Assembly: GCA_028279045.1 (NCBI GenBank)
Contig: JANQSZ010000016.1
Location: 70,333 to 113,804 of the forward strand
Length of the DNA stretch: 43,472 nucleotides
Reading direction: 5' to 3'
Origin: Candidatus Nanoarchaeia archaeon
GTDB lineage: Archaea > Nanobdellota > Nanobdellia > Woesearchaeales > UBA10216
The translations under genes were made by a program, and so were the position numbers. The notes under the pieces are model-generated. The model did not search any database. It worked only from the letters and a program-made list of their open reading frames with translations, and was not told where the DNA came from. This document shows, in pieces, positions 17,234-40,082 of the stretch (positions within the stretch are counted from its first letter, which is position 1; every line of letters starts with the position of its first letter).

Positions 17234-18412
17234 ATGGAATATCAAGAAGCCCTGGATTACATCAACAGCCTAGAACTCTTTGGCATGAAGCTGGGGCTGG
17301 AGAACATCACTGCGCTAATGGAGGTTCTAGGCAATCCCCAGAACGACTATGATATCATCCATGTTGCAGGCACGAACGGCAAGGGATCTGTGGTTGCCTT
17401 TTGCTCATCAATCTTGAGAGGCGCCAGCATAAATCACGGATCTTACATCTCTCCTGCCTTGGTTGATTTTCGCGAACGCATGACTGTAAATGGCAATTGG
17501 GCTGAGGAAAAAGAAATTGTTCAGCTTGCAACAGAAGTGAAAGCAGCAGCCCAAAAAATACCAGAGTACCAAATTACTTTCTTTGAATTCATTACTGCAA
17601 TGGCATTCCTGCATTTCAAAAAGAAAAACGTGCAAGTTGTTTTGCTTGAAGTTGGACTTGGCGGCAGGTTAGATGCAACAAATGTCGCAAATGCAGGTAT
17701 CGCTGGAATTACAAACATTTCTCTCGAGCATACACAAGTTCTTGGCAATACTATTGCAGAAATTGCACGAGAAAAAGCAGGCATTATCAAACAACACGCT
17801 CACATATTCACAACAGAAACAAATCCAGAAGCGCTGAGTGTATTCAAAGAAGTGTGTCAGAAGCAGCATTCCATTTTGCATCCAGTTGGCGTCGAGAATT
17901 TAGAAGTTTCTCTCAACGGAAAACATCAAAAAATAAATGCATCGCTTGCAAAAGCATTGATGAGAGCGTACAGTGTCCGCGAAGAAGATATAGAAAATGG
18001 TTTACGCGTTGCGCGGTGGCCAGGGCGCCTAGAAATCGTTCAACATAACCCGACTATTTTGTTAGATTGCGCTCATAATCCTGCTGGCATGAAAACTGCA
18101 GTTGATTTCATTCACGAGCGAGAAAGAGAAAGAACAATTTGCGTACTCGCAATTTCCGATGACAAAAACCGAGATGAAATGATTCAGCTCCTCAATCCAG
18201 AAATCGATGTTTTCATCGCTACGCAATCAAAGTTCAAGCCCACGCCAGTAAGCGAATTGGCAGCCAGCCTGCAAGATACCAAAAAAGAGCTACACGAACA
18301 CCCAGAAGTCAAAGATGCTATTAATAAAGCAAAGGAGCTCGCCACCGACGCTGATTTAATAGTGATCATTGGTTCAATCTTCATGATTGGCGAAGCAAAA
18401 AGGTTCTTATAG
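17234..18412 (+). CDS. folC: Folylpolyglutamate synthase / dihydrofolate synthase
   Basis: 392 residues of the Mur-ligase-like FolC family, which adds glutamate to dihydropteroate or folates using ATP. P-loop AGTNGKGS (45-52); YISPALVDFRERM; LLEVGLGGRLDATN; NISLEHTQVLG with AREKAGI; the C-terminal domain has WPGRLEIV and LLDCAHNPAGM. The protein is slightly shorter than typical bacterial FolC (~420), mainly in the C-terminal domain, but all motifs are present. FolC is patchy in archaea and may be acquired. The start matches a TATA-like element and the family N-terminus. Confidence 0.94.
   Translation: MEYQEALDYINSLELFGMKLGLENITALMEVLGNPQNDYDIIHVAGTNGKGSVVAFCSSILRGASINHGSYISPALVDFRERMTVNGNWAEEKEIVQLATEVKAAAQKIPEYQITFFEFITAMAFLHFKKKNVQVVLLEVGLGGRLDATNVANAGIAGITNISLEHTQVLGNTIAEIAREKAGIIKQHAHIFTTETNPEALSVFKEVCQKQHSILHPVGVENLEVSLNGKHQKINASLAKALMRAYSVREEDIENGLRVARWPGRLEIVQHNPTILLDCAHNPAGMKTAVDFIHERERERTICVLAISDDKNRDEMIQLLNPEIDVFIATQSKFKPTPVSELAASLQDTKKELHEHPEVKDAINKAKELATDADLIVIIGSIFMIGEAKRFL
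18405..18412 (+). promoter_or_regulatory. Weak TATA-like element before the multi-HTH gene
   Basis: TCTTATAG overlaps the folC stop and lies ~25.5 nt upstream of the ATG at 18434. Readthrough from folC is equally possible. Confidence 0.35.
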
Positions 18413-18433: not shown

Positions 18434-21400
18434 ATGGTCACGGTGTTGGAGGAAGATGAACCAGATTCACATTCTATTTCTGATATAATACAAGAAGCCG
18501 CCGATGTGGAGACAGAGCTAAGTAGATTAGCCTGGAATCTCGAGCAGCGTGCGGAGGATATGCCTGAGACGCTAGAAAATATTCAATTTACCGAAAAAGA
18601 AACGGGTTTCCTGAAAGCGTGGATACGGGATTCGGCAAACACGGGTGGCTGGGGCTACAATGGGCAAACAGCTCAATTAACAAGAAGGTTCTCAGTAAGG
18701 AATCCGCTCGGAGCGATATCGACACTTCTTGAAAAAACGGGTCATAGTACCATTGGGTTATTGGTAAGAGATTTGGTTTTTGCGGGAAGAACAATTATTC
18801 CAGAGTGGGAACTTGAAGCACGATTTGCAGAAGGCAACGAGCGCATAGCAAAGATGGGTGAAGGGTTTAACGAAGTGCGGTTGAACAGACATCATCTGAA
18901 ATATTTGCGTGGTTTGCAGGAAGCCCTGCAGAAAGAAAGCGATTACTATCAAGGACAGCACCAGGATATTGCTAATGCCCTTAATGTTAATAGAGCCGTT
19001 CTATCAAAAAATTTGGCAGCGATATCAAGATCAATTGGAGCGGAAAACCCCACAGAGTTGTTATGTGCTTTTGAATACTTTATCCGGGAGCAAGGGTTCC
19101 ATTCTGTGAGAGAATTTGCAGAAGCATTCAACCAGAGGGAGCGCAAGTCAACTGGCGCATCGGTTTCCCCAGGAAACAATTCTGGTTTGGCTCCGAGGGA
19201 AATAGCATTTTTGGAAACAGCCAGGGATGCAATGGTAGCTGCGGGTGTGCAAAGATATCGTAATCTTAGTGGTGATGTTGCTGAAACAATGGGGTTTCAA
19301 AGAAACACCTCAACAGTTTATTCGTATTCCATTAGAAAAAAACTAGGTGTTGCAACACTTCCAGAAGCAATAGTGAAAGCGGGAAGAGCAGGAGTTATTG
19401 AGCTCAATCAAGAAGAGTTTGAGGGCATTCCAGAAAGTAGAAAAGTGAAAAAACACAGTGATGATTCTAAACATAGTCTGTTTGAGCGATTAAGTCCTGG
19501 TCAAAGAACATTTCTTAGCGAGTATATTTTAACAGCCGCGCAAAATGGCGGCTGGGGGTATATAGGACAGGGAGTAAACATCACAGCAAATACAGGTCTC
19601 TCTGATAGCGGCAATATTAGAGCAAGTATTGTCAGGAAAGCTGGAGGTATGACAGTTGGAAATGTTGCCAGGATGTTACTTGGTGAAGGACATTTCCAAG
19701 ATATTGCTCCAGATTTGGAGGAACTTACAGAGCAAAGTGATGCGCGGATTCAGGAAATAGCAGGACGCGTTGGCAGGTTAACGGATATGCAATTAGATGG
19801 AATATTTGCATACAGGTCGATGTTCCGTACGTTTGGTGAAACAATAAGAGGAGATCGCGGAGTGCAGAGTAAAAATCATCAGTTGTCCATTGCAGCCTTG
19901 CTAAAGAGAGAGGGCGTAAAAACTCCGGGTGAGTTGGTTCGTGCAATTGAGGTGTATGCGGAAAATCTTGGTTACAACTCACTAGAAGATTATGCCAAAG
20001 CGCGATCAGCAGGGCAAGAGAGGGATGCTGGCGAACGTACTGAAGAAATACAGAGGCTTCCGCAGCGACGCGTATCAGGTAACGGTGCATCCCCTTCCCA
20101 TGAAAGCTCCGCAAGTATCGATACCGTTGTTTCTCCTGTCGCCGTGGTTAGCAATAAATATGGATTATCACCAGGTAATATTAGTTTCTTGGAAGCAGCG
20201 CGTGATCAAATAACTGAGCGCGGTATTAGAAAGCACTATAAGGCACTAACTACTGATGTTGCTGAAAGATTAGGCATAACACGTAGTGCTTCATCGCAGC
20301 GATCAACGCACGCGAGAAGAAAGTTAGGCGAGGATTCACTGGTTGATGCTGTGCTTAAAGCAGGGCGAGAAGGGTTAATCGAACTTAATGAGGAAGAGTT
20401 CCTTGCCTTGCCCACGTCTGTCCCAAAAGTAAGTCGTCCTCGAGTTGTACCTGGACCTGATAATGGGTATGGCCTTAATGATGATCATATAGCATATCTT
20501 AACACGGCCGTAGTACTTATGACTGCTCAACACGAGCGTGATTTCCGAGGAGTGCATTCAAAAGTTGCAGATACCTTAGGCATAGAAAGAGGAAATGCGT
20601 CAAGCAAATGGGCAGCCATGAGAAAAAGATTAGGTGTTAGTTCTTTATCTGATGCAATCATAAAAGCAGCCAAAGCCAATGTTATCACGATTGATGACGG
20701 GTTTGAACATATTCCAATGTACAGTCCTGAACGAAAAAATTATCGGATAGGAACCGATGGACTGTCTACTGATCCTTTCGGAAGGGAAAGAACGTTTGCA
20801 TTACCTGCACCTCCTCGAGAAAGCATAGCTGTTTCGCGTCAGTTCGGCGAGCCAACAGAAAGACCACGACAGGTGTTACGGGAAGTGATAGATTTAGAAA
20901 GACAAAGGATTGCAAGCATGACTGTAGCTGATCGAGCAATTGATCCTAAAGATATTGAAGCGTTGCGAGATGTAGTAACTCCAATTTATAATGATGCCGG
21001 CGGACTCGCATCCGAGTACCAAAATCGACGGCATATGTCTGATTCAGTGGTTCGAAAAGCTGGTTTTCCGAATGCAGGATCTGTTGTATTATTCATGGAA
21101 AACAAGGGAAGGTTAAGTCGTGACTATATCGCTCAACATAAAAGAATTGGTTGGGGAGTGATCCAGGAAAGAGCACACGATGTCGATTGGGATGGTATGA
21201 GCAGGTTTGCATCCGAACTTGATATTGTTGTTGCAACAATACCTCTTGTTCTGCAACAAAACGGTTTTGCTCCGGACTCAGAAGGGTACGAGAATCTAGC
21301 TGCATATTCCGGTATGGATGTAAGCGCTTCAGATGTAAGACGAGCATACGACGCATTAGGGGAAGTTTTTGATACAGGGAGAAACCATGCGCGAACCGTT

Positions 21401-21472
21401 AATGTGCTTCGATTGCATGCAGTGGAAAAGCGCGTGCGTAGATTAGAAGAGTTATTGCCACAAGCAGTTTAA
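18434..21472 (+). CDS. Giant multi-HTH protein with about nine predicted DNA-binding modules
   Basis: 1012 residues without signal or membrane segments. Three module types recur. Type A (~51-125, 351-425, 835-900) has GGWGY and (V)RKAG-like segments. Type B (~148-235, 446-530, 918-985) has helix, IA..L, then a helix starting ELxxAxE. Type C (~250-332, 576-660, 678-760) reads GL.P..I.FLE.A, DVAE..G..R, RKKLG, EAIVKAGR.G.IEL. Type C closely follows the LuxR/GerE helix-turn-helix pattern, including the RKLGV turn and the AI..AGLI end. Apparent order is A-B-C-A-B-C-C-A-B with basic linkers. Likely a sequence-specific or architectural DNA-binding protein; the target is unknown. Confidence 0.8.
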   Translation: MVTVLEEDEPDSHSISDIIQEAADVETELSRLAWNLEQRAEDMPETLENIQFTEKETGFLKAWIRDSANTGGWGYNGQTAQLTRRFSVRNPLGAISTLLEKTGHSTIGLLVRDLVFAGRTIIPEWELEARFAEGNERIAKMGEGFNEVRLNRHHLKYLRGLQEALQKESDYYQGQHQDIANALNVNRAVLSKNLAAISRSIGAENPTELLCAFEYFIREQGFHSVREFAEAFNQRERKSTGASVSPGNNSGLAPREIAFLETARDAMVAAGVQRYRNLSGDVAETMGFQRNTSTVYSYSIRKKLGVATLPEAIVKAGRAGVIELNQEEFEGIPESRKVKKHSDDSKHSLFERLSPGQRTFLSEYILTAAQNGGWGYIGQGVNITANTGLSDSGNIRASIVRKAGGMTVGNVARMLLGEGHFQDIAPDLEELTEQSDARIQEIAGRVGRLTDMQLDGIFAYRSMFRTFGETIRGDRGVQSKNHQLSIAALLKREGVKTPGELVRAIEVYAENLGYNSLEDYAKARSAGQERDAGERTEEIQRLPQRRVSGNGASPSHESSASIDTVVSPVAVVSNKYGLSPGNISFLEAARDQITERGIRKHYKALTTDVAERLGITRSASSQRSTHARRKLGEDSLVDAVLKAGREGLIELNEEEFLALPTSVPKVSRPRVVPGPDNGYGLNDDHIAYLNTAVVLMTAQHERDFRGVHSKVADTLGIERGNASSKWAAMRKRLGVSSLSDAIIKAAKANVITIDDGFEHIPMYSPERKNYRIGTDGLSTDPFGRERTFALPAPPRESIAVSRQFGEPTERPRQVLREVIDLERQRIASMTVADRAIDPKDIEALRDVVTPIYNDAGGLASEYQNRRHMSDSVVRKAGFPNAGSVVLFMENKGRLSRDYIAQHKRIGWGVIQERAHDVDWDGMSRFASELDIVVATIPLVLQQNGFAPDSEGYENLAAYSGMDVSASDVRRAYDALGEVFDTGRNHARTVNVLRLHAVEKRVRRLEELLPQAV

Positions 21473-23545: not shown

Positions 23546-23566
23546 GCAAAATACGCGTTTTGCAGT

Positions 23567-23692
23567 ATGAAAAGAGGCGAATTGATCACTCAGCATGTCA
23601 TCATGATGATCATAATAGCGCTATTCCTGATAGCTATGCTTTTCATCGCGAACAATATGCGCTGTGCCATCACAGGAGGGTTCCTATGTTGA
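23567..23692 (+). CDS. 41-residue membrane peptide, first gene of surface cluster
   Basis: Reads MKRGELITQHVI then a continuous hydrophobic helix rich in Ile, Leu and Met, ending NNMRCAITGGFLC. The N-terminal KRG followed by a hydrophobic stretch resembles class III (prepilin-like) signals. It is leaderless (TATA 25.5 nt upstream) and its stop overlaps the next start (ATGTTGA), with the SD of the next gene (GGAGGG) inside its coding sequence. Function unknown; a small pilin-like or membrane adaptor subunit is plausible. Confidence 0.7.
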   Translation: MKRGELITQHVIMMIIIALFLIAMLFIANNMRCAITGGFLC

Positions 23693-24447
23693 AGCGCGGT
23701 CATTTGCTTGAAGGCACTTTGGGATTGATAATCGGTGTTATTGGTGCTTTTGTTCTGCTGGTAGTTTTTGGAATTATTTTTGGATTCATTGGTCAGGCAA
23801 CCAATATTGCAATTTGTCAAACAACCCTAACAGCATCAGAGTATCAGCATACGGTAACTGATTGTGTTGGAGGAGGATCGGTGTTGGACGTTCTGGACTG
23901 TAGAACCGTGCACATTACAGTTTTTGAAGATGAGTATCAAGTTAATGGTGATAGGCGAGGGGGTATCGAAAAAACTTTCGATAACTCAATCAGAGAAATT
24001 TTTGCTGATCAGTACCAAACATGTTGGAATACCTTTAGTGAAGGTCACGCAGATCCTTTTGGGAATAGGGAAGATGGAGAATCAATTTGCATTCCGTGCG
24101 CAGAAATTGAGTTCAATCTTGATCGAGATAGAAAAATAGATGGGCTCTATCAATACATGAATACACATGACACAAAAGAAATTGGCGGCACGTATGCAGA
24201 ATATCTCAACAAGGGTGCTCAATTTACTGACGAGGAAGATTTGAATTTTGAGATCGATACGAACAAAGATTATGCAATTATGTATATAGTGGCAGACGAC
24301 GGGTTCTGGAATGATGTCAACGACGCAATACCGTTCAAAACGTTCATCGGAGAAGCAGTACAGATTTGCGCAGAGAAACATCATCTATCTATGAGGTTGT
24401 TGGAAGCGAAAGATGTTGAAGAAGTGTGTGAAAAAGTAGAAATCTAA
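23686..24447 (+). CDS. Membrane-anchored Cys protein A of the surface cluster
   Basis: 253 residues starting MLKRGHLLEGTLGLIIG at an SD-preceded ATG (GGAGGG, 23674-23680). One N-terminal membrane helix (~10-38) precedes an external domain with scattered cysteines. The core motif CW-x2-F-x2-G-x2-D-x-FG, then C-x2-C-x2-IEF (~115-145), is shared with the next gene, as is a following GLYQYMN/GIYNHIH segment, so the two are paralogues. KRG before the hydrophobic stretch resembles a prepilin signal. The longer upstream ATG at 23560 is rejected because it precedes the predicted transcription start. Confidence 0.8.
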   Translation: MLKRGHLLEGTLGLIIGVIGAFVLLVVFGIIFGFIGQATNIAICQTTLTASEYQHTVTDCVGGGSVLDVLDCRTVHITVFEDEYQVNGDRRGGIEKTFDNSIREIFADQYQTCWNTFSEGHADPFGNREDGESICIPCAEIEFNLDRDRKIDGLYQYMNTHDTKEIGGTYAEYLNKGAQFTDEEDLNFEIDTNKDYAIMYIVADDGFWNDVNDAIPFKTFIGEAVQICAEKHHLSMRLLEAKDVEEVCEKVEI

Positions 24448-25616
24448 TGGTAACAACAAGTGGTGTGCTAATTTCTATCATTTTAGTAATTGTCACAGGG
24501 ATCATTGCGTTGGGAATACAGACTGGCTTCATTGATTTTGTCGATCAGCAACAAAGCGAGAGTTTGTGCAAAAATAGTGTGCGTGCACACCGCGCAACAA
24601 TGGTTGCAGGTGTGGTAAAAACAAACGATATCATTTGCCCGACAAATCATGTTGAAATAAAGAATAATGTGAAAGATGAGGACGCGCTTAACTTGATAGC
24701 CAACGAGATGTACACTTGTTGGGATAACTTTCTCCGAGGAGGAGAAGACTTGTTTGGCGCCGAAACAACATACTGTAGCATTTGTTCAATTATTGAGTTT
24801 CAAGATGAAGAGCGCGAACTTTCCGGTATTTACAATCACATACATTCCACTACGTTGGTTCAGGGCGGCGCCGTAGATGAATTCTATGGTTCTATTCTGG
24901 AACAGGACGAGCAAATCAGGACGTATGGAGATTTCTTGCACGTATTCAAATCTCCAAAATACTACGAGCATGGCGTAGAAGAAATCACAATTAGTAATTT
25001 TGAAGGCGGTCCAGGATGGGAAGGTGATGCTGAAGATCTTCTATTTACACTTGACAATGTAGAGTATGAACTAACGGGCGATAGACCATATGCAGTTATT
25101 TTCCGCTATGCGAAGGGTCAGGAAAGCGCACAAGGCGTAGCACGGTTTTATGAAGATGTAACTGGTTCTGTTGGAATGAAAGTACTTCTTGGTGGAGGAA
25201 CAAAAACATTTCTGACAGAGACGTCTGGCTCAGACGCTCCGGATAGAGACGGAGAAGGGTTGACAGATCGGGCAAGAGAAGTAGCAAGAACAGCAACAGA
25301 TAATGTTGGGACACTAGACATAATCTCTGTTCGTACCACTCCAGTGCTTCGGCAATTAAGTGGATGGGCTTCAACAGGAGGGATGAAAGTAATAACCTCT
25401 GTCAAGCCTCTTGCTCCAAGCGCTCGATTCCTAGGGCCGGTTGCTAGCAAGGCAGCTTGGCCTCTAACTGTTGCTGCAATGGGAGATGTGTTTAGAGTGG
25501 CAGAATCCAGCCAGGATCGTGATCCTGAATGGGTTGCTCAGACAATACTGATTGATTATACTGAAGAAGCCATTGAGGCAAGTGGCTGTCAGTATATCGC
25601 AACAAGGCAGGAATAA
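24447..25616 (+). CDS. Membrane-anchored Cys protein B, paralogue of A
   Basis: 389 residues, coupled to the previous gene by a TAATG overlap. N-terminal helix (~5-30) followed by an external domain with the shared CW..F..G..D.FG...C.IC..IEF motif at ~88-116, then ~200 residues without a paralogue in protein A. Residues ~290-345 are low in charge and rich in Gly, Ala, Ser and Pro (GWASTGGMKVITSVKPLAP...), which could insert into or lie on a membrane. No enzymatic motif is seen. Confidence 0.8.
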   Translation: MVTTSGVLISIILVIVTGIIALGIQTGFIDFVDQQQSESLCKNSVRAHRATMVAGVVKTNDIICPTNHVEIKNNVKDEDALNLIANEMYTCWDNFLRGGEDLFGAETTYCSICSIIEFQDEERELSGIYNHIHSTTLVQGGAVDEFYGSILEQDEQIRTYGDFLHVFKSPKYYEHGVEEITISNFEGGPGWEGDAEDLLFTLDNVEYELTGDRPYAVIFRYAKGQESAQGVARFYEDVTGSVGMKVLLGGGTKTFLTETSGSDAPDRDGEGLTDRAREVARTATDNVGTLDIISVRTTPVLRQLSGWASTGGMKVITSVKPLAPSARFLGPVASKAAWPLTVAAMGDVFRVAESSQDRDPEWVAQTILIDYTEEAIEASGCQYIATRQE

Positions 25617-25621
25617 TAATC

Positions 25622-25629
25622 ATTATATA
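25622..25629 (+). promoter_or_regulatory. TATA box 2 of the surface cluster
   Basis: ATTATATA, 26.5 nt before the ATG at 25652; starts a second transcription unit. Confidence 0.65.
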
Positions 25630-25651
25630 GAGAGTAAACAGGAAAGAAAGT

Positions 25652-25795
25652 ATGGGATTGACAATACATCAACTCGGATTATTGATTCTTGGAATCATTG
25701 CATTAGTCATTGCAGTACTAATTATAACTGACATTGGCGATGTCATTGTAGACGTATTCGAGAAGAGTATTGCAGTAATACTTTTTGGAACATGA
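25652..25795 (+). CDS. 47-residue membrane peptide of the surface cluster
   Basis: MGLTIHQLGLLILGII then an almost uninterrupted Ile/Leu/Val/Ala helix, with an acidic patch (DIGDVIVDVFEK) and a second hydrophobic end (SIAVILFG). The ATGA overlap with the next gene and the TATA 26.5 nt upstream support it as real. Function unknown; its pairing with the 464-residue Cys protein suggests a membrane partner. Confidence 0.7.
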   Translation: MGLTIHQLGLLILGIIALVIAVLIITDIGDVIVDVFEKSIAVILFGT

Positions 25796-27186
25796 AAAAG
25801 GGTATGGAATTCAGCGTGGGGAAATTGCTAGGTGTACTCATAGCAATTGGATTAATTGCGGTTTTGCTAGGTGCGTTTGGAGACACTGGATTCAAGTTGT
25901 GGGGAGGAATACGAGATACAATCGGTGAAGAAATTACCACCGTATTTTGTGAACCTGGCGAAGAAGTTTGCCCTGGTACGAATTTTTGTGTTCCTATTAC
26001 CCATCTTTCCGATATCAATCAAGATCCAAATGCTGATGGAAAGCGTTTTTGCATTCCCGGTGATTTTACCAACACCCGGCTGGAATATTGTGAAGCTGCC
26101 ACCTGCGAGATAAAGGGTCCGTGCACCGATGAAGAAGGCTTGCGTGGCGGTGAATGTGATGTCGGTGTAGAGCAGTTTGGTGGAAATTGTGACTCTGATT
26201 TTGATTGCGGAGATCACGGAAAGTGTTTTGTGTATGATGATATTGTTGTGGGGCAGATCATGAATGCTTATCGACAGTATTATGAAAATGATGGCGCGGC
26301 AAAAACAGGAAGGTATTGGGAGAGTCCTGATGGACGTTTAGGGAGTTTTGACGAAAAAGGTTTCTGCGGCTGTGCACCTGGGACTGTGACTCCGACATTA
26401 GAGGATAAAAGTTCCTGCAGCCAGATAGGCGGTGTCTGTGCGACAAATTTTTGGGACTGTGACTTCGCAACTCACCGTGCTTTAGAATTCGGTTGCGAGG
26501 AAGACAGATCTTTCTGTTGTGCACCAAAAGAAAATGTCGAGGGAGAGTGGTGCGAACCAGTAGCTGATTGTGACGATGGTGAAATAAGATGTTCAGGTAA
26601 TAACGCGTGCGTTTCTGAAGACCAATACTGTGATCCTGAAACATACAAGGATACTAGGAATAATCAATGCCTTGACAGAACATGTATGTTAACAAATCTA
26701 AAGTGTTCAGATGACGAAGATAATCCAGAAGGATTGCTTGATGGAAGATGTCGAGAGAACGTAATACCAACCGGGATCCGTTGTTCCGATACAGATGAAG
26801 AGAATGAAGAAAACAGAGATCGGTGCGGCGATGGCGCATTCTGTTACCATTACGATGAAGATCTAATTGATTTGTATAATAGCGGGGTTCCTCCTGAAGA
26901 TCTAACAGATCCGATTCAGAATTTTTGGAGTAGGACCATATCCGGTGGAAAAAATGTAGATCCTTACACAGGAACTGGTTTCTGCACTTGTGAAGAAGAA
27001 TATACGGCGCCTATCCTCAATAAAGAGTCGTGTAGAAGTGTAGGAGGTACATGCTCTCATAGTGCCACTCATTGTGATTTGAATACAATGTTCGGCGTAG
27101 AAGGAGGATGTTCAGGAGATCCAGACGGAACGATTTGTTGTTTACCTAAATCAAAAGCAGGTGATTATTGTGAACCAAGTAAATAG
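25792..27186 (+). CDS. Secreted 40-cysteine protein with internal duplication
   Basis: 464 residues. The N-terminus MKKGMEFSVGKLLGVLIAIG is prepilin-like (KKG before a hydrophobic helix, ~8-30). The rest is external and holds 40 cysteines in two tandem ~200-residue units (~52-250 and ~254-460). The C-terminal halves of both units share near-identical cysteine spacing (6-47-2-15-7-7-12-7-1-11 versus 6-47-2-14-7-7-12-9-1-10) and motifs GFCxC, SC..(I/V)GG.C and CC.PK. It must be heavily disulfide-bonded. Likely a rigid binding or stalk module; not a known family to me. Confidence 0.82.
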   Translation: MKKGMEFSVGKLLGVLIAIGLIAVLLGAFGDTGFKLWGGIRDTIGEEITTVFCEPGEEVCPGTNFCVPITHLSDINQDPNADGKRFCIPGDFTNTRLEYCEAATCEIKGPCTDEEGLRGGECDVGVEQFGGNCDSDFDCGDHGKCFVYDDIVVGQIMNAYRQYYENDGAAKTGRYWESPDGRLGSFDEKGFCGCAPGTVTPTLEDKSSCSQIGGVCATNFWDCDFATHRALEFGCEEDRSFCCAPKENVEGEWCEPVADCDDGEIRCSGNNACVSEDQYCDPETYKDTRNNQCLDRTCMLTNLKCSDDEDNPEGLLDGRCRENVIPTGIRCSDTDEENEENRDRCGDGAFCYHYDEDLIDLYNSGVPPEDLTDPIQNFWSRTISGGKNVDPYTGTGFCTCEEEYTAPILNKESCRSVGGTCSHSATHCDLNTMFGVEGGCSGDPDGTICCLPKSKAGDYCEPSK

Positions 27187-27445
27187 TGCGAAAAAAGCTC
27201 AAGGATTATCGATAAACGTTATTTTAATTGCAGTCATCGGATTAATTGTTGTTGTAGTTCTTATTGCTATTTTCTCCGGTGTGATAAAGGATGATTTTAT
27301 TCCGTTCAAAGAAGGCATCACAGAATGTAAGGAGCCAAGTTATTGTTCCAGTAATGCTGCATGCGAAGATGGCGGAACTCCAGTAAAGCTTGGCTGTGAT
27401 GAAGAAACAGATCCAGGAGAATGGTGTTGTGTCATTGATGAATAA
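27170..27445 (+). CDS. Small pilin-like Cys protein, 91 aa
   Basis: GTG start at 27170 (the GTG at 27161 is the alternative), overlapping the end of the previous gene. KKAQGLSINVILIAVIGLI is a typical DPANN pilin-like N-terminus: basic residues, Gly, then a hydrophobic helix (~15-38). A short external domain with seven cysteines follows, ending GEWCCVIDE, which resembles the CC ends of the 40-Cys protein. Probably a minor pilin or secreted subunit of the same assembly. Confidence 0.75.
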   Translation: MNQVNSAKKAQGLSINVILIAVIGLIVVVVLIAIFSGVIKDDFIPFKEGITECKEPSYCSSNAACEDGGTPVKLGCDEETDPGEWCCVIDE

Positions 27446-27992
27446 GAAGGGGATAAGTGTTCAGGTAGCAGTCTCTGTACTCATGATAGGCTTCCTTATC
27501 TTTGCAGGATTCGAACTGCTGACTGGCCTTCTGGGCACTGAAGACACTGCCCAGGCAGGCACGGTATTCGAGGAAGTCACTACCCATACAATTGATGAGC
27601 TAGAAGATGGAGATTCCGATACTCTGCCCTGGTTTTCTCTTCCAAAAAATTATTACCTATTCGCTTTCGATAAAGGAAAGCCAGGAATCGATTTTGGCGA
27701 TAGTGATGAAGATTTTGATGTGAGCCGGCCGCAAGGGCTTGCTCATTGTGGCAAAACAAAGGCATGCGTCTGTATTTGCGAGAAGGAGTGCAACCCAAAT
27801 GAAGAACTGGTTGAGTGCAAGCAATACAACCATATTGACGAGTTCCGTATGAGTGTTGGAGATGGCGAGAGTAACAATGAAGGCAACGAGATAGGAAGGA
27901 GATATAGCGTTGCGATCAAAGGTGATGGCAATTCCCATAGCCTGGAATTCTCTCTAATTGGAAAATCCTTGCTTATTGAGCCTTCTAACTGA
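27438..27992 (+). CDS. Pilin-like membrane-anchored protein, 184 aa
   Basis: Start ATG at 27438 (MNKKGISVQVAVSVLM) overlaps the previous stop by 8 bases. The KKG followed by a hydrophobic stretch (~6-28) fits a class III signal. The external domain has a CGKTKACVCICEKEC cysteine cluster at ~105-125 and ends in beta-like SLEFSLIGKSLLIEPSN. An upstream in-frame start at 27390 lies inside the preceding gene and is rejected. Function unknown. Confidence 0.8.
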   Translation: MNKKGISVQVAVSVLMIGFLIFAGFELLTGLLGTEDTAQAGTVFEEVTTHTIDELEDGDSDTLPWFSLPKNYYLFAFDKGKPGIDFGDSDEDFDVSRPQGLAHCGKTKACVCICEKECNPNEELVECKQYNHIDEFRMSVGDGESNNEGNEIGRRYSVAIKGDGNSHSLEFSLIGKSLLIEPSN

Positions 27993-27997
27993 AAACC

Positions 27998-28005
27998 TTT
28001 TTAAG
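27998..28005 (+). promoter_or_regulatory. TATA box 3 of the surface cluster
   Basis: TTTTTAAG, ~27 nt before the ATG at 28029; third transcription unit, containing the peptidoglycan hydrolase. Confidence 0.65.
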
Positions 28006-28028
28006 TACAGTATCCGATAAGTGACTAT

Positions 28029-28901
28029 ATGGTTGATCAGGGCGACCAGAGTATTCCGTGGCATGTTCTAATCTCAGCTCTTATGCTGTTTGTAGTCATA
28101 CTGTTCATTGGGTTGGTGTATGAGGAGCGAACCAGCGATACTACGCTTGAAAAAGTCATTATTGCAAGGGATATTGCTCTCTTGCTAGATACAGTGTATG
28201 CTGCTCCTGGCGATATTCAGTACATCTACAACCTTGGCAAATACCAATACGGCATCAAGGTACGTGCTGGTGTTGTAACGGTCTCAGATCCCTCAACTTC
28301 TGTTTCTTATGTTTATGCAGAGGACGGCAGTTTCGACAAAAATCCTGATTTTGAGTCTACTGATATTATCAAACAAGTTGTATTACGCAAACGCGGAAAC
28401 GAAGTTACTGTTTCTGGCGTTGCCGCGGACATAACGAGCAATGCTCGTAGTGAGTTCGAGCGTTTCATGGACTTTGTTGATTGGAATGCGTGGCAGGAAG
28501 AAGAGAACGGTTTGTCAGTCAAGTTTAATTTTGATCCGTTGTTGTTTGATGACTCTTACTTCATTCATTTCTATGAAGATGACGATGTAAAAAGGGTGAG
28601 GTTAGAACAAGAAACAGCTGAAGGAATTGTTGGAGAAACATCTGAAATTGACGAAGATCCAGATGGCTTGAGTGGTAGACTTGTGATAACTGGTGCAAGG
28701 AATGCGGGCGATTATCAAAAGTTTCTCGATAATCCTCAGTGGCAATCTGGTGTAATTTCTCCTAGTGGAGCAGAGCCGGAAGTTGCAGAGGATGTTATAA
28801 TCAAGAGGAGTTCGTTAATAATTACAAAATGTTGGGATCGGTTAGTGATTGCAGCAGATTCTGAATTTGTGGAGGGGGCTGAATGCGCAAGAAGGGGTTA
28901 G
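28029..28901 (+). CDS. Single-pass membrane protein of the surface cluster, 290 aa
   Basis: N-terminal helix (IPWHVLISALMLFVVILFIGLVY, ~9-31) followed by ARDIALLLDTVYAAPGDIQYIYNLG and strand-rich external sequence. A similar (A)RxxALLLDTxxx helix appears in the M23-M15 fusion just after its anchor, suggesting a shared stalk or packing element. It lacks the KKG motif. The C-terminus contains the only two cysteines, perhaps one disulfide. Overlaps the next gene by 19 bases. Confidence 0.78.
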   Translation: MVDQGDQSIPWHVLISALMLFVVILFIGLVYEERTSDTTLEKVIIARDIALLLDTVYAAPGDIQYIYNLGKYQYGIKVRAGVVTVSDPSTSVSYVYAEDGSFDKNPDFESTDIIKQVVLRKRGNEVTVSGVAADITSNARSEFERFMDFVDWNAWQEEENGLSVKFNFDPLLFDDSYFIHFYEDDDVKRVRLEQETAEGIVGETSEIDEDPDGLSGRLVITGARNAGDYQKFLDNPQWQSGVISPSGAEPEVAEDVIIKRSSLIITKCWDRLVIAADSEFVEGAECARRG

Positions 28902-29398
28902 TGTTTGAAGCGCTTGAATGGATCCCTCGGTGGGTGTTTGCAGTAATAGTCATTATTACTTTCATTGCCGTAACCGATGCATACATTATCCGAGATTTAG
29001 ATGTTGCAGATGTTGAGTCTGCATTAATTGCAGAGCGATTATTCATTGCAGAAAGCACTTTGGGTGCTGAGGAGGCCGGCATTACTCGGATTGGAAGAGT
29101 AGACCAGAGAAAGGAAAACAGGCTCAACAATCCTGAAAGTTTCGAGCCGGATTTAAACAGGGCAGTTCAGTTCAGAAGAGAGTCGCACGCCAGTGCAGAA
29201 GTTATTTTCAAAGAACAGAAAACATGGCTGCAAAAAGAGCAGCTTCTAAATTATTTGTTGTTTGCTCGACGAGGATTACGAGGCCCGGGAAGTGCTCAGG
29301 TTCTTGATTGGTCTGTTTTTGTAGTTGATTCTGAAAATAAAGCAACAGTGTTGAATGCATCAGTGGTAATACCAAATGATCAGAAAAGGACAATTTAG
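28883..29398 (+). CDS. Pilin-like membrane protein, 171 aa
   Basis: MRKKGLVFEALEWIPRWVFAV: KKG then a hydrophobic stretch with Glu at about position 5 of the putative mature protein, the classic type IV pilin residue, followed by a helix (~14-34). The external part (~40-171) is charged and helical. Translationally overlapped on both sides (19 and 23 bases). Probably an assembly subunit; identity unknown. Confidence 0.78.
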   Translation: MRKKGLVFEALEWIPRWVFAVIVIITFIAVTDAYIIRDLDVADVESALIAERLFIAESTLGAEEAGITRIGRVDQRKENRLNNPESFEPDLNRAVQFRRESHASAEVIFKEQKTWLQKEQLLNYLLFARRGLRGPGSAQVLDWSVFVVDSENKATVLNASVVIPNDQKRTI

Positions 29399-29879
29399 TT
29401 TGTGGGGAGATATCATAGGCGCGTTCTTGCCATTTTTCCTATTTACAACACTCCTTGCAATACTGCTTCCATTGTCAAGTTTTTTCGGTGCTGGGCTCGA
29501 TCAAGTTCAGCAAAATGTTGATTCTCAAATTGATGAGATACAAAAAATTCGTGTTGAGCATGATTTGATTGCATTAATGCAGCATAAATTCGAAATTGAT
29601 GATCCCGGTGTAAGCAATACATTGACAATTGCAGAATGGATGATCGAGTATCATAGAGAAGAAAAGGAAACTATCAAGTTTCGGTTGATCGAGGAATTGG
29701 AGAACATTGCCACTGACAAAATGTGCGGTGAACTTACCGTAAAGGTCGACGACGACAGATTGTTTGGAGAGGATTTTGAATTCGGAAAATGTAGTCAAGG
29801 AGATAGAGTAAGTGCTACATTGTATCTTCCATTGTCCGATGGAGAATTGTTGGAGGTAGAACTTGAGGAAATTTTCTAG
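29376..29879 (+). CDS. Pilin-like membrane protein, 167 aa
   Basis: MIRKGQFSLWGDIIGAFLPFF: RKG motif followed by a hydrophobic helix (~12-36), then an alpha-helical external region and a C-terminal beta-like domain with two cysteines (~113 and ~135). Start ATG is inside the upstream gene's 3' end. Directly precedes the M23-M15 fusion gene with one base between stop and start codon, so the two are likely co-expressed and may interact. Confidence 0.78.
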   Translation: MIRKGQFSLWGDIIGAFLPFFLFTTLLAILLPLSSFFGAGLDQVQQNVDSQIDEIQKIRVEHDLIALMQHKFEIDDPGVSNTLTIAEWMIEYHREEKETIKFRLIEELENIATDKMCGELTVKVDDDRLFGEDFEFGKCSQGDRVSATLYLPLSDGELLEVELEEIF

Positions 29880-29880
29880 G

Positions 29881-32109
29881 ATGGGAAAGAAAGGGTACAC
29901 ACTATTTTCTGTAGGAGTATTTCTCATGTTTGTCATATTTAGTATGCTTTTCTTAGCAGACATTATCGGCCGTGCCAATGAACTAAAAGGCAACGCTCCA
30001 CTTGGCGCACGTCAAGCATTGCTTCTTGATACGTACATCAGCGCAGAGAAATCAATCTTGTTTGCAGAGCACGCTGCTCTGTTTGCGACCGATGATGCAA
30101 TTGTACAACTCGCAAGCAATGCCGGCACATTTGTCCAACCAGTGTATGATGAAGGCGATACGGCGGTAGCATACGTTGGTGGGAGCTGCGGTTTCCACGA
30201 GGATAAAGTGCTGCTCAACGATGTTCTAGAAGGAACGTGTTTCCCTAGTCCAAAATCTGCGCAAGCACATCTTGCTGGATATTTCAATGAAGAGCTTGAC
30301 AGATACATAGTCAAAGAACCTGCTCGTAACTTGCCTTTAAACAATTATGACTTGGAAATTATTGGCAGTGTTGCAACAGCAAATGCCAGGAGAAAATTGG
30401 TAATTACAGAAGGTGAAGCAGTTCGTTCCCGTGTTTCTGGTTTGCCATGGCCTATGGAAGGGCCCCTTACTGATGGATTTGGTATAGTCCCTGATCCTTT
30501 CAATCCTTCACAAAATCGCTGGCATGGTGGCATTGATATCGCAGCGATTTCAGGAACAAAGGTTGTTGCCGTCGACGATGGTGTTGTTGTGTATGTGGGT
30601 GATGACGGAGGCTTCGGCGGCACAGTAAGAATAGATCACGGCAATGGATTGTTTACCAGCTATAGTCACTTAAGAGAGTTCAAAGTTGATGTTGGTGATC
30701 CTGTGAGTACTGGTGATTGGATTGGTAATTCTGGTGGATCTATAGATGATCCTGAACGGGGCACGGTTGCTGATCCAATGCATGGATCCAGTACTGGTGC
30801 TCATTTGCATTTTGATTTCAGAGATAATTTAGCATATCAGGCTCAGCCAGGTCAAATGGAGTTAGATCCTTTTTGTTTTTTATCGCCGATTAGTGAAGAT
30901 GGTCATCAGTTAAACTATGAACCGCAGTGTGACGGTGTTAAACCGCTTGAAGAAGGCACTCAATTACAAGTACAAGGCATCACAGATTTCATCCAATATA
31001 CTATTTATCCGTCCTTTGAATTTGATTTTGAACACGACTTATCTGTGTATGACGATGTAACGTTGCTCGCTCAAGATATCATTGACACGTGCCGCCTGCA
31101 TATCAGTATTGTGTCCTGTGCGTACCCTGAAAACGCACGAGGATTTAGCAGTATTAGTGTGCAGGTTGGCTCGGTCGATGATCGTATCGTTGTTGTCAGC
31201 GCAGAAAGAAACGGATTGAATTTTAACTTCGCACTCCAAATTCCTCGTCGGAGTTTCACCTTTCCTGGCGACGACAGATATTTTATTTACAGCGGCATAA
31301 CTCGTACAGACATTTCAACGTTTCCTGTTAACAATGCTCTATACATTGTGGACGAGTTCGAGCAGTACGCTGTTATTATTACCGAGGAAAACCGCCAGGA
31401 AGTTCAGGATCAAATTTGGTTGGGAGCAACTGCAGTTATTCTCAACGTCGGTAACCCGCCAAACATGGAACCTAAACCACCAGCACCTGTTGTTGGTAGA
31501 TTAATTCCATCAAGTCCCGGGGTTCAGCCGCAGTTGCCGCAAATTCAAGGGGAGTTAGATTGTACAGATATTCTAGCACCAGTCAACAGGCAATATGGTT
31601 TCAGTTCAGATTGCGAGCCTGATGATTTACGAAAAATAGATAGCAAGTATGCCCTAAGCAACAGAGGTCATTGGGTGCGAGAGGCAGTGTTGCCACATTT
31701 AGTAGATCTTCTGGACGCAGGCCGTGCAGCAGGCCATCCAATTGGGCTAGTGTCAACCAATCGTACGTACGAGTATCAGGCTAGATTGAGGACATATCAA
31801 TCAGGAGATAGCACTGCGGATGCAGGGCATAGTGAACATCAAATGGGAACAGCTGTGGACATTGCAACATTACAAACTGCGTCATTAGTTGTCACCGGAA
31901 AAGAGCCTGAATTTGTTTGGTTGGCAGAGAACGCAGTAGACCACGGTTTTGTTCTCAGCTATCCAAAAGGCAATGGCATTTACATTTATGAGCCGTGGCA
32001 TTTCCGGTGGGTAGGAATACCAGTGGCAGCAGAGATTAATCGCCAGATTGAAGACGACCAGAACAACATCAACAAGCCAGATGACTATTTCCGTGCCGAA
32101 TGGCAATAA
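29881..32109 (+). CDS. Membrane-anchored M23 endopeptidase - M15B (VanY-type) carboxypeptidase fusion
   Basis: 742 residues. N-terminal GKKG plus hydrophobic helix (~6-28) anchors the protein outside the cell. Residues ~185-335 are an M23 (LytM-type) metallopeptidase: HGGID (His215, Asp219), HGSSTGAHLHFDF (His308, His310). After a ~220-residue middle region of unknown fold comes an M15B D-Ala-D-Ala carboxypeptidase (~560-720): NRTYEYQ, SEHQMGTAVDI (His653, Asp660) and EPWHFRWVG (catalytic Glu704, His707). All zinc ligands are intact in both domains. Both families cut bacterial peptidoglycan peptides. ATG 29881 is preferred to the TTG at 29863 inside the upstream gene. Confidence 0.93.
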   Translation: MGKKGYTLFSVGVFLMFVIFSMLFLADIIGRANELKGNAPLGARQALLLDTYISAEKSILFAEHAALFATDDAIVQLASNAGTFVQPVYDEGDTAVAYVGGSCGFHEDKVLLNDVLEGTCFPSPKSAQAHLAGYFNEELDRYIVKEPARNLPLNNYDLEIIGSVATANARRKLVITEGEAVRSRVSGLPWPMEGPLTDGFGIVPDPFNPSQNRWHGGIDIAAISGTKVVAVDDGVVVYVGDDGGFGGTVRIDHGNGLFTSYSHLREFKVDVGDPVSTGDWIGNSGGSIDDPERGTVADPMHGSSTGAHLHFDFRDNLAYQAQPGQMELDPFCFLSPISEDGHQLNYEPQCDGVKPLEEGTQLQVQGITDFIQYTIYPSFEFDFEHDLSVYDDVTLLAQDIIDTCRLHISIVSCAYPENARGFSSISVQVGSVDDRIVVVSAERNGLNFNFALQIPRRSFTFPGDDRYFIYSGITRTDISTFPVNNALYIVDEFEQYAVIITEENRQEVQDQIWLGATAVILNVGNPPNMEPKPPAPVVGRLIPSSPGVQPQLPQIQGELDCTDILAPVNRQYGFSSDCEPDDLRKIDSKYALSNRGHWVREAVLPHLVDLLDAGRAAGHPIGLVSTNRTYEYQARLRTYQSGDSTADAGHSEHQMGTAVDIATLQTASLVVTGKEPEFVWLAENAVDHGFVLSYPKGNGIYIYEPWHFRWVGIPVAAEINRQIEDDQNNINKPDDYFRAEWQ

Positions 32110-32150: not shown

Positions 32151-33122
32151 ATGATTAAAATTCCGTATGACGACATTGTTTCTAAAATTCAGGCCGGTAC
32201 CGGCTTATCTCAAGACGAAATCGAGTCAAAAGTCAAGCAGAAGATGGATCTCCTCGCTGGTTTAGTAAGTAAGGAAGGGGCAGCCCATATTATTGCGAAC
32301 GAGCACAACATCAAGCTCATCGAATCGGTTTCTGGCGCTTTTAAAGTGGACAAGCTGTTTGATGGCATGCGTGATGTCGAAGTCACTGGAAAAGTGCTCC
32401 GCTTGTACGAAACACGCTCTTTCAACACCAATGGCAGGTCAGGTATGGTCGCGTCAATGGTCGTTGGTGATGAAACAGGGTCAATTCGATTAGTGTTGTG
32501 GAACGAACACGCACTAAAGGCAGAGCAGATCAAAGAAGGTAAGATTCTCAAGGTTCATGGCGCGTATGTAAAAAACAGAGATACTGGAATCGAGCTCCAT
32601 CTGGGAAGTAAAGGAGACGTCCAAGTTGATCCACCAGGCGTTACGTTAGATAATGTGAAAGAGCTCGCTCCGAAACAACCAGTGGAACGAAAGAAGCTCA
32701 TTGACATCACAAGCAATGACGATCGCGTTGAAGTGATGGGAACAATTGTTCAAGTGTTTGATTTACGTTTCTTTGAAGTTGATCCAACAACAGGCAAGAG
32801 AGTAAAACCTGAAGATTTGGTTGGTCAACCAGGATATTCTTACGTACTAAACGCGTTTGTCGACGACGGTACAGAAAACATGCGGTTAGTGTGTTTTCGA
32901 GACCAGGTATGTCAATTGCTCGGCAAAACACACGAAGAAGTTCTCTCTTATAGAGAAAACGCAGGCAGCTTTGAACCAGTAAGCACAGAATTGCTCGGAA
33001 CAATCATCAAAGTTGCGGGTCGCGTAAAGAACAACGAAATGTTTAACCGGCTCGAGCTCGTCGCAAACAACGTCGAGCAAGCAAACCCTTCTGAAGAGAT
33101 AGAACGTCTCCAAAGTCAATGA
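32151..33122 (+). CDS. Archaeal RPA-like single-stranded DNA-binding protein
   Basis: 323 residues. A helical N-terminal region (~1-65; DDIVSKIQ..TGLSQDEIESKV) is followed by an OB fold (~70-165; DVEVTGKVLRLYETRSF...GSIRLVLWN) and a second OB-like domain (~185-305; DRVEVMGTIVQVFDLRFFEV...MRLVCFRDQ). This layout matches archaeal RPA41-type replication factor A subunits, which coat ssDNA during replication and repair. No zinc finger is present. Coupled to the downstream membrane protein by an ATGA overlap. Confidence 0.88.
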   Translation: MIKIPYDDIVSKIQAGTGLSQDEIESKVKQKMDLLAGLVSKEGAAHIIANEHNIKLIESVSGAFKVDKLFDGMRDVEVTGKVLRLYETRSFNTNGRSGMVASMVVGDETGSIRLVLWNEHALKAEQIKEGKILKVHGAYVKNRDTGIELHLGSKGDVQVDPPGVTLDNVKELAPKQPVERKKLIDITSNDDRVEVMGTIVQVFDLRFFEVDPTTGKRVKPEDLVGQPGYSYVLNAFVDDGTENMRLVCFRDQVCQLLGKTHEEVLSYRENAGSFEPVSTELLGTIIKVAGRVKNNEMFNRLELVANNVEQANPSEEIERLQSQ

Positions 33123-39767: not shown

Positions 39768-40082
39768 GGATGTAGGCCAAGTACTTGACTACGGTATCTG
39801 GGTGCCAACGTTTCGTAATGGAGACTGAGGCTGCAAAGCCGGATGCTGAGGAAAGTCCGCCCACCATAAACGGCCGCCCTTAGGGGGTCCTTAAACGGAC
39901 GGGAACAGCACAGAAACGACACGGCCTTCAGGTTGGAATGATGCAGTGAATGCAGACGTCCCTGAAGGGAGCGATGAAACGGCAGTCCCGGCTGGTGCAA
40001 GTCCAAGACGCTTAGTTTAATGTCAAGACAAACCATCGCATTGCGGGTTTGACAGAAGGCGGCTTATTCTTGATCTACATCC
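39768..40082 (+). ncRNA. rnpB: RNase P RNA
   Basis: About 315 nt. The ends form a perfect 8-bp P1 helix: GGATGTAG (39768-39775) with CTACATCC (40075-40082). Conserved blocks: GAGGAAAGTCCGCCC (CR-I), CAGAAACG, GGTGCAAGTCC and the 3' GACAGAAGGCGGCTTA. Catalytic RNA of RNase P, which matures tRNA 5' ends. The 5' end coincides with the start site expected from the TATA box at 39738-39745. The first A-ATPase gene begins only 9 bases after its 3' end. Confidence 0.93.

Follow-up and report, generated by a model that had tools for sequence, protein, structure and literature searches.

A membrane-anchored carrier with exchangeable murein-enzyme domains in the archaeal order Woesearchaeales, and its possible use on bacteria

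The locus and the architecture of its fused peptidase

The window, i.e. the whole stretch of 43,472 nucleotides analysed here, belongs to a 1.02 Mb assembly of Candidatus Nanoarchaeia archaeon (90% complete, 1% contaminated) and harbors an archaeal RNase P RNA at 39815-40078. The gene under study (Table 1) is a single ORF with an ATG at 29881 and a possible alternative start six codons upstream (TTG at 29863). Pfam and the residue positions confirm that it joins an M23 and a VanY-type M15B peptidase on one membrane-anchored archaeal chain, as stated in the preliminary description made from the sequence alone. Peptidase_M23 matches residues 215-316 with 83.1 bits (cut-off 28.7) and VanY residues 597-712 with 71.9 bits (cut-off 25), which assigns the domains to the M23 and M15B/VanY families, and sequence matches in the PDB widen them to about 191-317 and 562-722, respectively. 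These PDB relatives are M23 enzymes and the carboxypeptidases YodJ, DacB and LdcB, the VanY domain being related equally to D,D-enzymes (YodJ, VanY) and to the L,D-carboxypeptidase LdcB/DacB. Both active sites are complete, with every residue where it had been placed: His215, Asp219, His308 and His310 in the M23 domain, which has an additional histidine in YSHL (His263), and His653, Asp660, Glu704 and His707 in the M15B domain. A single hydrophobic segment (residues 4-33) lies behind the KKG, with positive charges ahead of it according to hydropathy analysis. An AlphaFold model of the single window sequence has a mean pLDDT of 33 and is confident only at this N-terminal helix (pLDDT 55-90). 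No cell-wall-binding domain was recognised in the protein by Pfam and NCBIfam scans.

Alignment with relatives indicates that residues 1-181 and 367-453 together make up a single archaeal membrane protein, as its first and second half. This scaffold is broken by the M23 domain behind about residue 181 and continued beyond about residue 453 by the VanY domain. The roughly 220 residues between the two peptidases, previously taken for a separate domain of unknown fold, are therefore the second half of this carrier followed by a proline-rich linker. A search with the window protein retrieved relatives of 390-455 aa from the same GTDB family that match residues 3-163 and/or 361-454 and have neither peptidase. 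The scaffold has no relatives in Pfam, NCBIfam or the PDB, and its alignment holds two invariant cysteines, Cys103 and Cys120. A profile of the scaffold alignment with the M23 domain taken out (A1) matches the second half of the window protein with an E-value of 6.8e-26 over model positions 171-263.

Table 1 Features of the carrier locus, with positions in the window and the basis or occurrence of each
Feature	Position	Strand	Basis or occurrence
g0, paralog-like to g1	23560..24447	+	homologs at no fewer than 52 loci, shared in part with g1
g1, Cys-containing one-helix protein	24447..25616	+	homologs in at least 38 loci (fetched loci often stop short of this gene)
g2, Cys-rich one-helix protein with internal repeat	25792..27186	+	sequence
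g3, one-helix membrane protein	27390..27992	+	homolog in 102/140 carrier loci
g4, one-helix membrane protein	28029..28901	+	homolog in 115/140 carrier loci
g5, one-helix membrane protein	28883..29398	+	homolog in 128/140 carrier loci, at a median distance of 1.0 kb upstream
g6, one-helix membrane protein immediately preceding the carrier	29376..29879	+	sequence
742-aa carrier with M23 and VanY as cargo	29881..32109	+	ORF, Pfam
N-terminal KKG and hydrophobic helix, residues 3-38, predicted N-in/C-out anchor	29887..29994	+	hydropathy, positive-inside rule
Carrier N-half, residues 1-181 (to 172 in the N-half profile)	29881..30423	+	profile A1
M23 metallopeptidase, cargo slot 1, residues 197-322	30469..30846	+	PF01551
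Carrier C-half, residues about 365-453, 'Y.I.PSF ... FAL'	30973..31239	+	second match of profile A1
Linker with proline-rich stretch before VanY, residues 454-560	31240..31560	+	sequence
VanY-type M15B carboxypeptidase, C-terminal cargo, residues 562-722	31564..32046	+	PF02557, PDB matches
RPA-like OB-fold protein, downstream neighbour	32151..33122	+	Pfam; in 89/140 loci

The carrier gene is the last of an operon coding for several one-helix membrane proteins (23560-29879), most of which start with KKG or KRG. Homologs of g3, g4 and g5 keep the same side of the carrier across loci. No homolog of g2 was detected at carrier loci, nor one of g6 in a one-sequence search. None of the operon proteins belongs to a known family in Pfam, NCBIfam or the PDB, g4 in particular having no match in the last two. 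The downstream RPA-like gene is probably functionally unrelated to the carrier despite its synteny.

The carrier and most of the operon proteins have a KKG followed by a helix, which may recall the class III signal peptide of archaeal type IV pilins (K/R-G ahead of a hydrophobic helix); none of them matches a pilin family in Pfam or NCBIfam. Two pilus-type ATPase/TadC sets are present in the host genome, on contigs C27 and C29, away from the operon. It is possible that the carrier and its operon partners form a pilin-like assembly.

Two further observations concern this region. The 464-aa g2 protein has an internal duplication, with two GFC.C...SC...GG.C...CC units, and may be a doubled form of a shorter Cys-rich operon gene found in relatives (for example L019, 13085-13603). 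In a relative genome (G008), an ORF of more than 2000 aa lies upstream of the carrier operon (L018, 13831-19899), and a murein enzyme was not detected in it.

Distribution of the carrier and exchange of its cargo

Of 193 genomes sampled in the host's order, 142 have a match to profile A1; they represent 117 of 150 genera, and their carrier ORFs span about 180-1480 aa. The matches listed for a phylum-wide sample all fall within the host's class, and those listed from beyond the order are mostly ORFs of 241-298 aa, which is the size of the bare scaffold and leaves no room for cargo. The N-half profile was found in 138 of 148 collected carriers, and this half ends near residue 140-200 in nearly all of them; the C-half begins either within a few residues of it or after some 200-650 inserted residues. 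Such order-wide homologs, together with the archaeal RNase P RNA on the contig, bear out the earlier proposal that the gene is integrated in an archaeal genome.

The same 148 carrier ORFs, all from the host's order, were scored for murein enzymes in 11 classes. At least one class is present in 77 of them, with up to three per chain, and the enzymes include SLT, M23, amidases, NlpC/P60, M74, 3D and M15/VanY types. Among carriers of at least 350 aa, 71 of 113 hold a murein enzyme and 37% have no recognised one. Since no enzyme is recognised in about half of all carriers, some of them must have a job other than murein cutting or hold cargo that escapes recognition. Of 900 neighbouring ORFs no shorter than 150 aa, scored as a control, 15 had a murein enzyme, several of these being downstream halves of split carriers; the difference gives a Fisher p of 3e-59, which is merely indicative because the sequences are related. 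An independent Pfam scan of 134 carriers agrees with the class counts (M23 in 25, SLT in 28, Amidase_2 in 9) and adds NlpC/P60, M74, 3D, VanY, M15, CHAP, Amidase_3, glucosaminidase, phage lysozyme, VgrG3-like and other domains. The names obtained are nearly all those of murein enzymes, the few exceptions including fn3, PGA_cap, TPM and phosphoesterase.

Most cargo of all classes lies in a common slot, and most of the 27 carriers with an M23 domain have it where the window protein does. An SLT domain was identified in 33 of the 148 carriers with a profile of tight borders. Catalytic residues are largely retained, the full set being present in 20 of the 27 M23 domains and the catalytic Glu in 31 of the 33 SLT domains. 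Twelve different multi-enzyme combinations occur on the carrier, so that the pairing of M23 with a second wall enzyme in one chain, considered unusual at first, is this genome's version of a recurrent arrangement.

Replacement of cargo can be followed between relatives. The close relative L005 has an M23 domain at the same place as the window protein and no VanY domain; L007 and L010 end in a lysozyme-like/SLT domain, and L008 has a 3D-like domain. Carriers L128 and L122 come from one genus. Most of their flanking 50-aa blocks show 36-80% identity, which drops to 12-20% over positions 451-650, where a VgrG3-like lysozyme in L128 stands opposite an SLT domain in L122. Similarly, L111 and L137, from one family, are mostly 30-52% identical, except over positions 201-400 (16-24%), where an amidase stands opposite an M23 domain. 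These contrasts are best read, at the level of sequence, as cassette replacement on a fixed carrier. Cargo occupies a fixed insertion point behind the N-half and a second position at the C-terminus, and the window protein is the form that one species has of a membrane carrier shared across the order, with murein-enzyme cargo that is exchanged. That this carrier exposes its enzymes at the outer surface and is used on bacteria we regard as likely.

Several variants of the carrier were also noted. In some loci (L103, L109, L099, L065, L058, L094, L080 and others) it is split into two adjacent genes, often with a 4-base overlap and with cargo on either half, which we read as natural gene fission with coupled translation. 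In carriers L164 and L167 the M23 domain keeps its slot position and has lost most catalytic residues (HEN-Q, HENIA), possibly representing binding-only derivatives. A second anchored, carrier-like family starting with MGKRGQ... (L015/L270, L271, L272, L273-L281) has, in several family members, between five and seven matches per genome, with ORFs of up to about 1670 aa, some of which hold M23 and Amidase_2 domains; it is absent from the host genome.

Origin of the domains and the probable substrate

The relatives of the VanY domain are bacterial, with 39-41% identity to Dehalococcoidia and others in Bacillota and CPR, and in a tree the domain is nested among bacterial sequences, next to CPR-like ones (support 96/81), on a very long branch. 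The best matches of the M23 domain are equally close in carrier L005 (41%) and in bacterial plasmids (about 39-41%). No bacterial ORF with both M23 and VanY was present among the fetched loci; a Leucobacter locus (L255) that seemed to match both domains was discarded, as they are not in one ORF. A viral or phage origin was also dismissed, as the carrier N-half has no match in 50,697 phage records and the window protein none in viral contigs. The plainly bacterial kind of the VanY domain, in data from a metagenome-assembled genome, might suggest bacterial contamination or a chimeric assembly. However, archaeal scaffold and enzyme share one open frame, the operon is syntenic, and carrier-enzyme fusions recur in scores of independent genomes across the host's order; we therefore reject this explanation, whose probability is negligible.

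In bacteria, M23 and M15 enzymes ordinarily act on the cell's own wall, and the same could be imagined here, on a wall of the host or on the pseudomurein of a partner archaeon. However, the host genome has one Mur ligase match, which is FolC-like, and no PBP transpeptidase was found in it, which indicates that murein is not made by the host and, judged from these genes, neither is pseudomurein. The view that the enzymes have no endogenous substrate in this archaeon thus holds, a complete wall-synthesis pathway not having been found. Moreover, the cargo across the order belongs to murein families, some of them with lysozyme/SLT folds that target muramic acid, a sugar not present in pseudomurein. 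A self-wall enzyme was accordingly rejected for lack of a murein-synthesis core, and action on the host's own wall or on a partner's pseudomurein is, taken together, very improbable. With this core absent, the probable substrate is bacterial murein.

The Mur ligase gene of the window (17234-18412) was discarded as a wall gene, as it resembles FolC (HVAGTNGKGS; Mur_ligase_M and _C only). Next to it, 18434-21472 codes for a protein of 1012 aa in which helix-turn-helix-like blocks recur several times, with a weak match to GerE. The host genome also codes for a second M23 protein of 294 aa (L002, G000:C27:51619-51927), in which a lipobox-like LAAACS precedes a Thr/Pro-rich stalk; a relative genome has an M23 protein with a comparable stalk (L012 in G005).

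Possible use of the carrier on bacteria

The scaffold would face outward, perhaps as part of a pilin-like surface complex, and display its enzymes on the cell surface, an orientation suggested by the positive-inside rule and the invariant Cys103 and Cys120. Upon contact, the M23 domain may cleave cross-links or stems in the wall of a bacterial partner or prey, and the M15B enzyme may trim the ends of its stem peptides. The opened wall could then allow attachment, invasion, or lysis with uptake. In other carriers, peptidases or amidases together with glycosidases would make an efficient opening of murein, and shifts of cargo would follow shifting bacterial targets. Because the same slot has been refilled species by species with cutters of the bacterial wall, these tiny archaea probably use the carrier to attack or breach bacteria; whether as contact weapon or in invasion or feeding, such a role is one that we infer from the sequences. 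Several points speak against such a use: the many carriers with no recognised enzyme, the few M23 copies that have lost active-site residues, the lack of a known wall-binding domain in the window protein, and operon proteins with no recognised pilin domain in a genome whose pilus ATPase/TadC genes lie apart from the operon. On balance, we give a probability of about 0.55 to the interpretation that the operon of membrane proteins and the cassette-exchanged, murein-cutting carrier form a so far undescribed order-wide surface machine, with which ultrasmall DPANN archaea breach bacterial walls on contact.

The carrier could instead be mainly an adhesin that docks on bacterial hosts, its enzymes chiefly binding murein or opening it locally for the hold of an episymbiont. 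Castelle et al. 2021 (PMC8204110) propose that large proteins with transglycosylase domains in Pace- and Woesearchaeota serve in attachment to bacterial walls. The enzyme-free bare carrier is common, suggesting that the basic job of the carrier is not cutting, and a few carriers have fn3 domains. Pure binding, however, does not demand the catalytic residues that most M23 and SLT domains have kept, and we consider this explanation the less likely one. Still less likely, anchored enzymes might serve scavenging, digesting released wall fragments as food (amino sugars, D-amino acids) and not acting as a contact weapon. Reduced genomes and surface display would fit the uptake of such products, and combinations of peptidase and glycosidase would degrade murein completely, but tethering to the membrane and exchange of cargo suit cell-cell contact better than soluble nutrition.

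If the surface machine proposed here is real, a large archaeal group would have bacteria as its hosts or prey. An order in which most sampled genomes have an anchored protein that was refitted again and again with cutters of the bacterial wall points to bacteria as partners or prey, and the carrier with its operon offers a concrete gene set for testing such a partnership. According to PMC11291902, all DPANN archaea cultivated to date require archaeal hosts.

Antibacterial archaeal hydrolases are known. Strock et al. 2025 (PMC12352652) describe bacterial wall enzymes, including M23, in murein-free archaea, with an antibacterial use, for example the modular peptidoglycan hydrolase Woldo of Halogranum salarium, and already list Nanoarchaeia as holding M23 members. 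Their set was selected for a catalytic together with a known cell-wall-binding domain, whereas the window protein has no such wall-binding domain, and the enzymes described here occupy one fixed position within an archaeal membrane scaffold that is conserved along with its operon. The carriers point to a natural stock of probable multi-enzyme murein hydrolases, which would escape surveys that demand a known wall-binding domain. Proteins with transglycosylase domains, probably from the same broad group of archaea and proposed to act on bacterial walls, appear in the accessible parts of Castelle et al. 2021 and of Vigneron et al. 2022 (PMC9723730), the latter reporting GH23 in 'vampiristic' Woesearchaeota. 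Some of them may be members of the carrier family; the window protein itself lacks a lytic transglycosylase domain such as that of Castelle fam00969, which 33 other carriers have. Those parts of both papers note the transglycosylase only, and not a common carrier, its slot, other enzyme classes or the operon. We found no description of the exchangeable carrier, that is of its shared scaffold, slot, cargo range and operon, in the open-licence literature searched.

Compared with bacterial M23 and M15B enzymes (YodJ, LdcB/DacB, VanY), the window protein has the same domains and active sites, but in it the two are fused together inside an archaeal scaffold. A broader likeness exists to polymorphic toxins and to T6SS spikes with murein-degrading tips, which also combine a constant delivery part with an exchangeable antibacterial domain. 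Unlike these, the carrier has its main cargo inserted mid-chain, not only at the C-terminus, and there are no secretion-spike parts, no secretion-system marker domain being recognised in the window protein or the operon proteins by Pfam and NCBIfam. No candidate immunity gene was found among the neighbours examined, and none would be needed, as the producer has no murein. The carrier family would stand as an evident example, in archaea, of effector domains being swapped as cassettes on an unchanging delivery part, and one of its members, L128, even has a VgrG3-like C-terminal domain.
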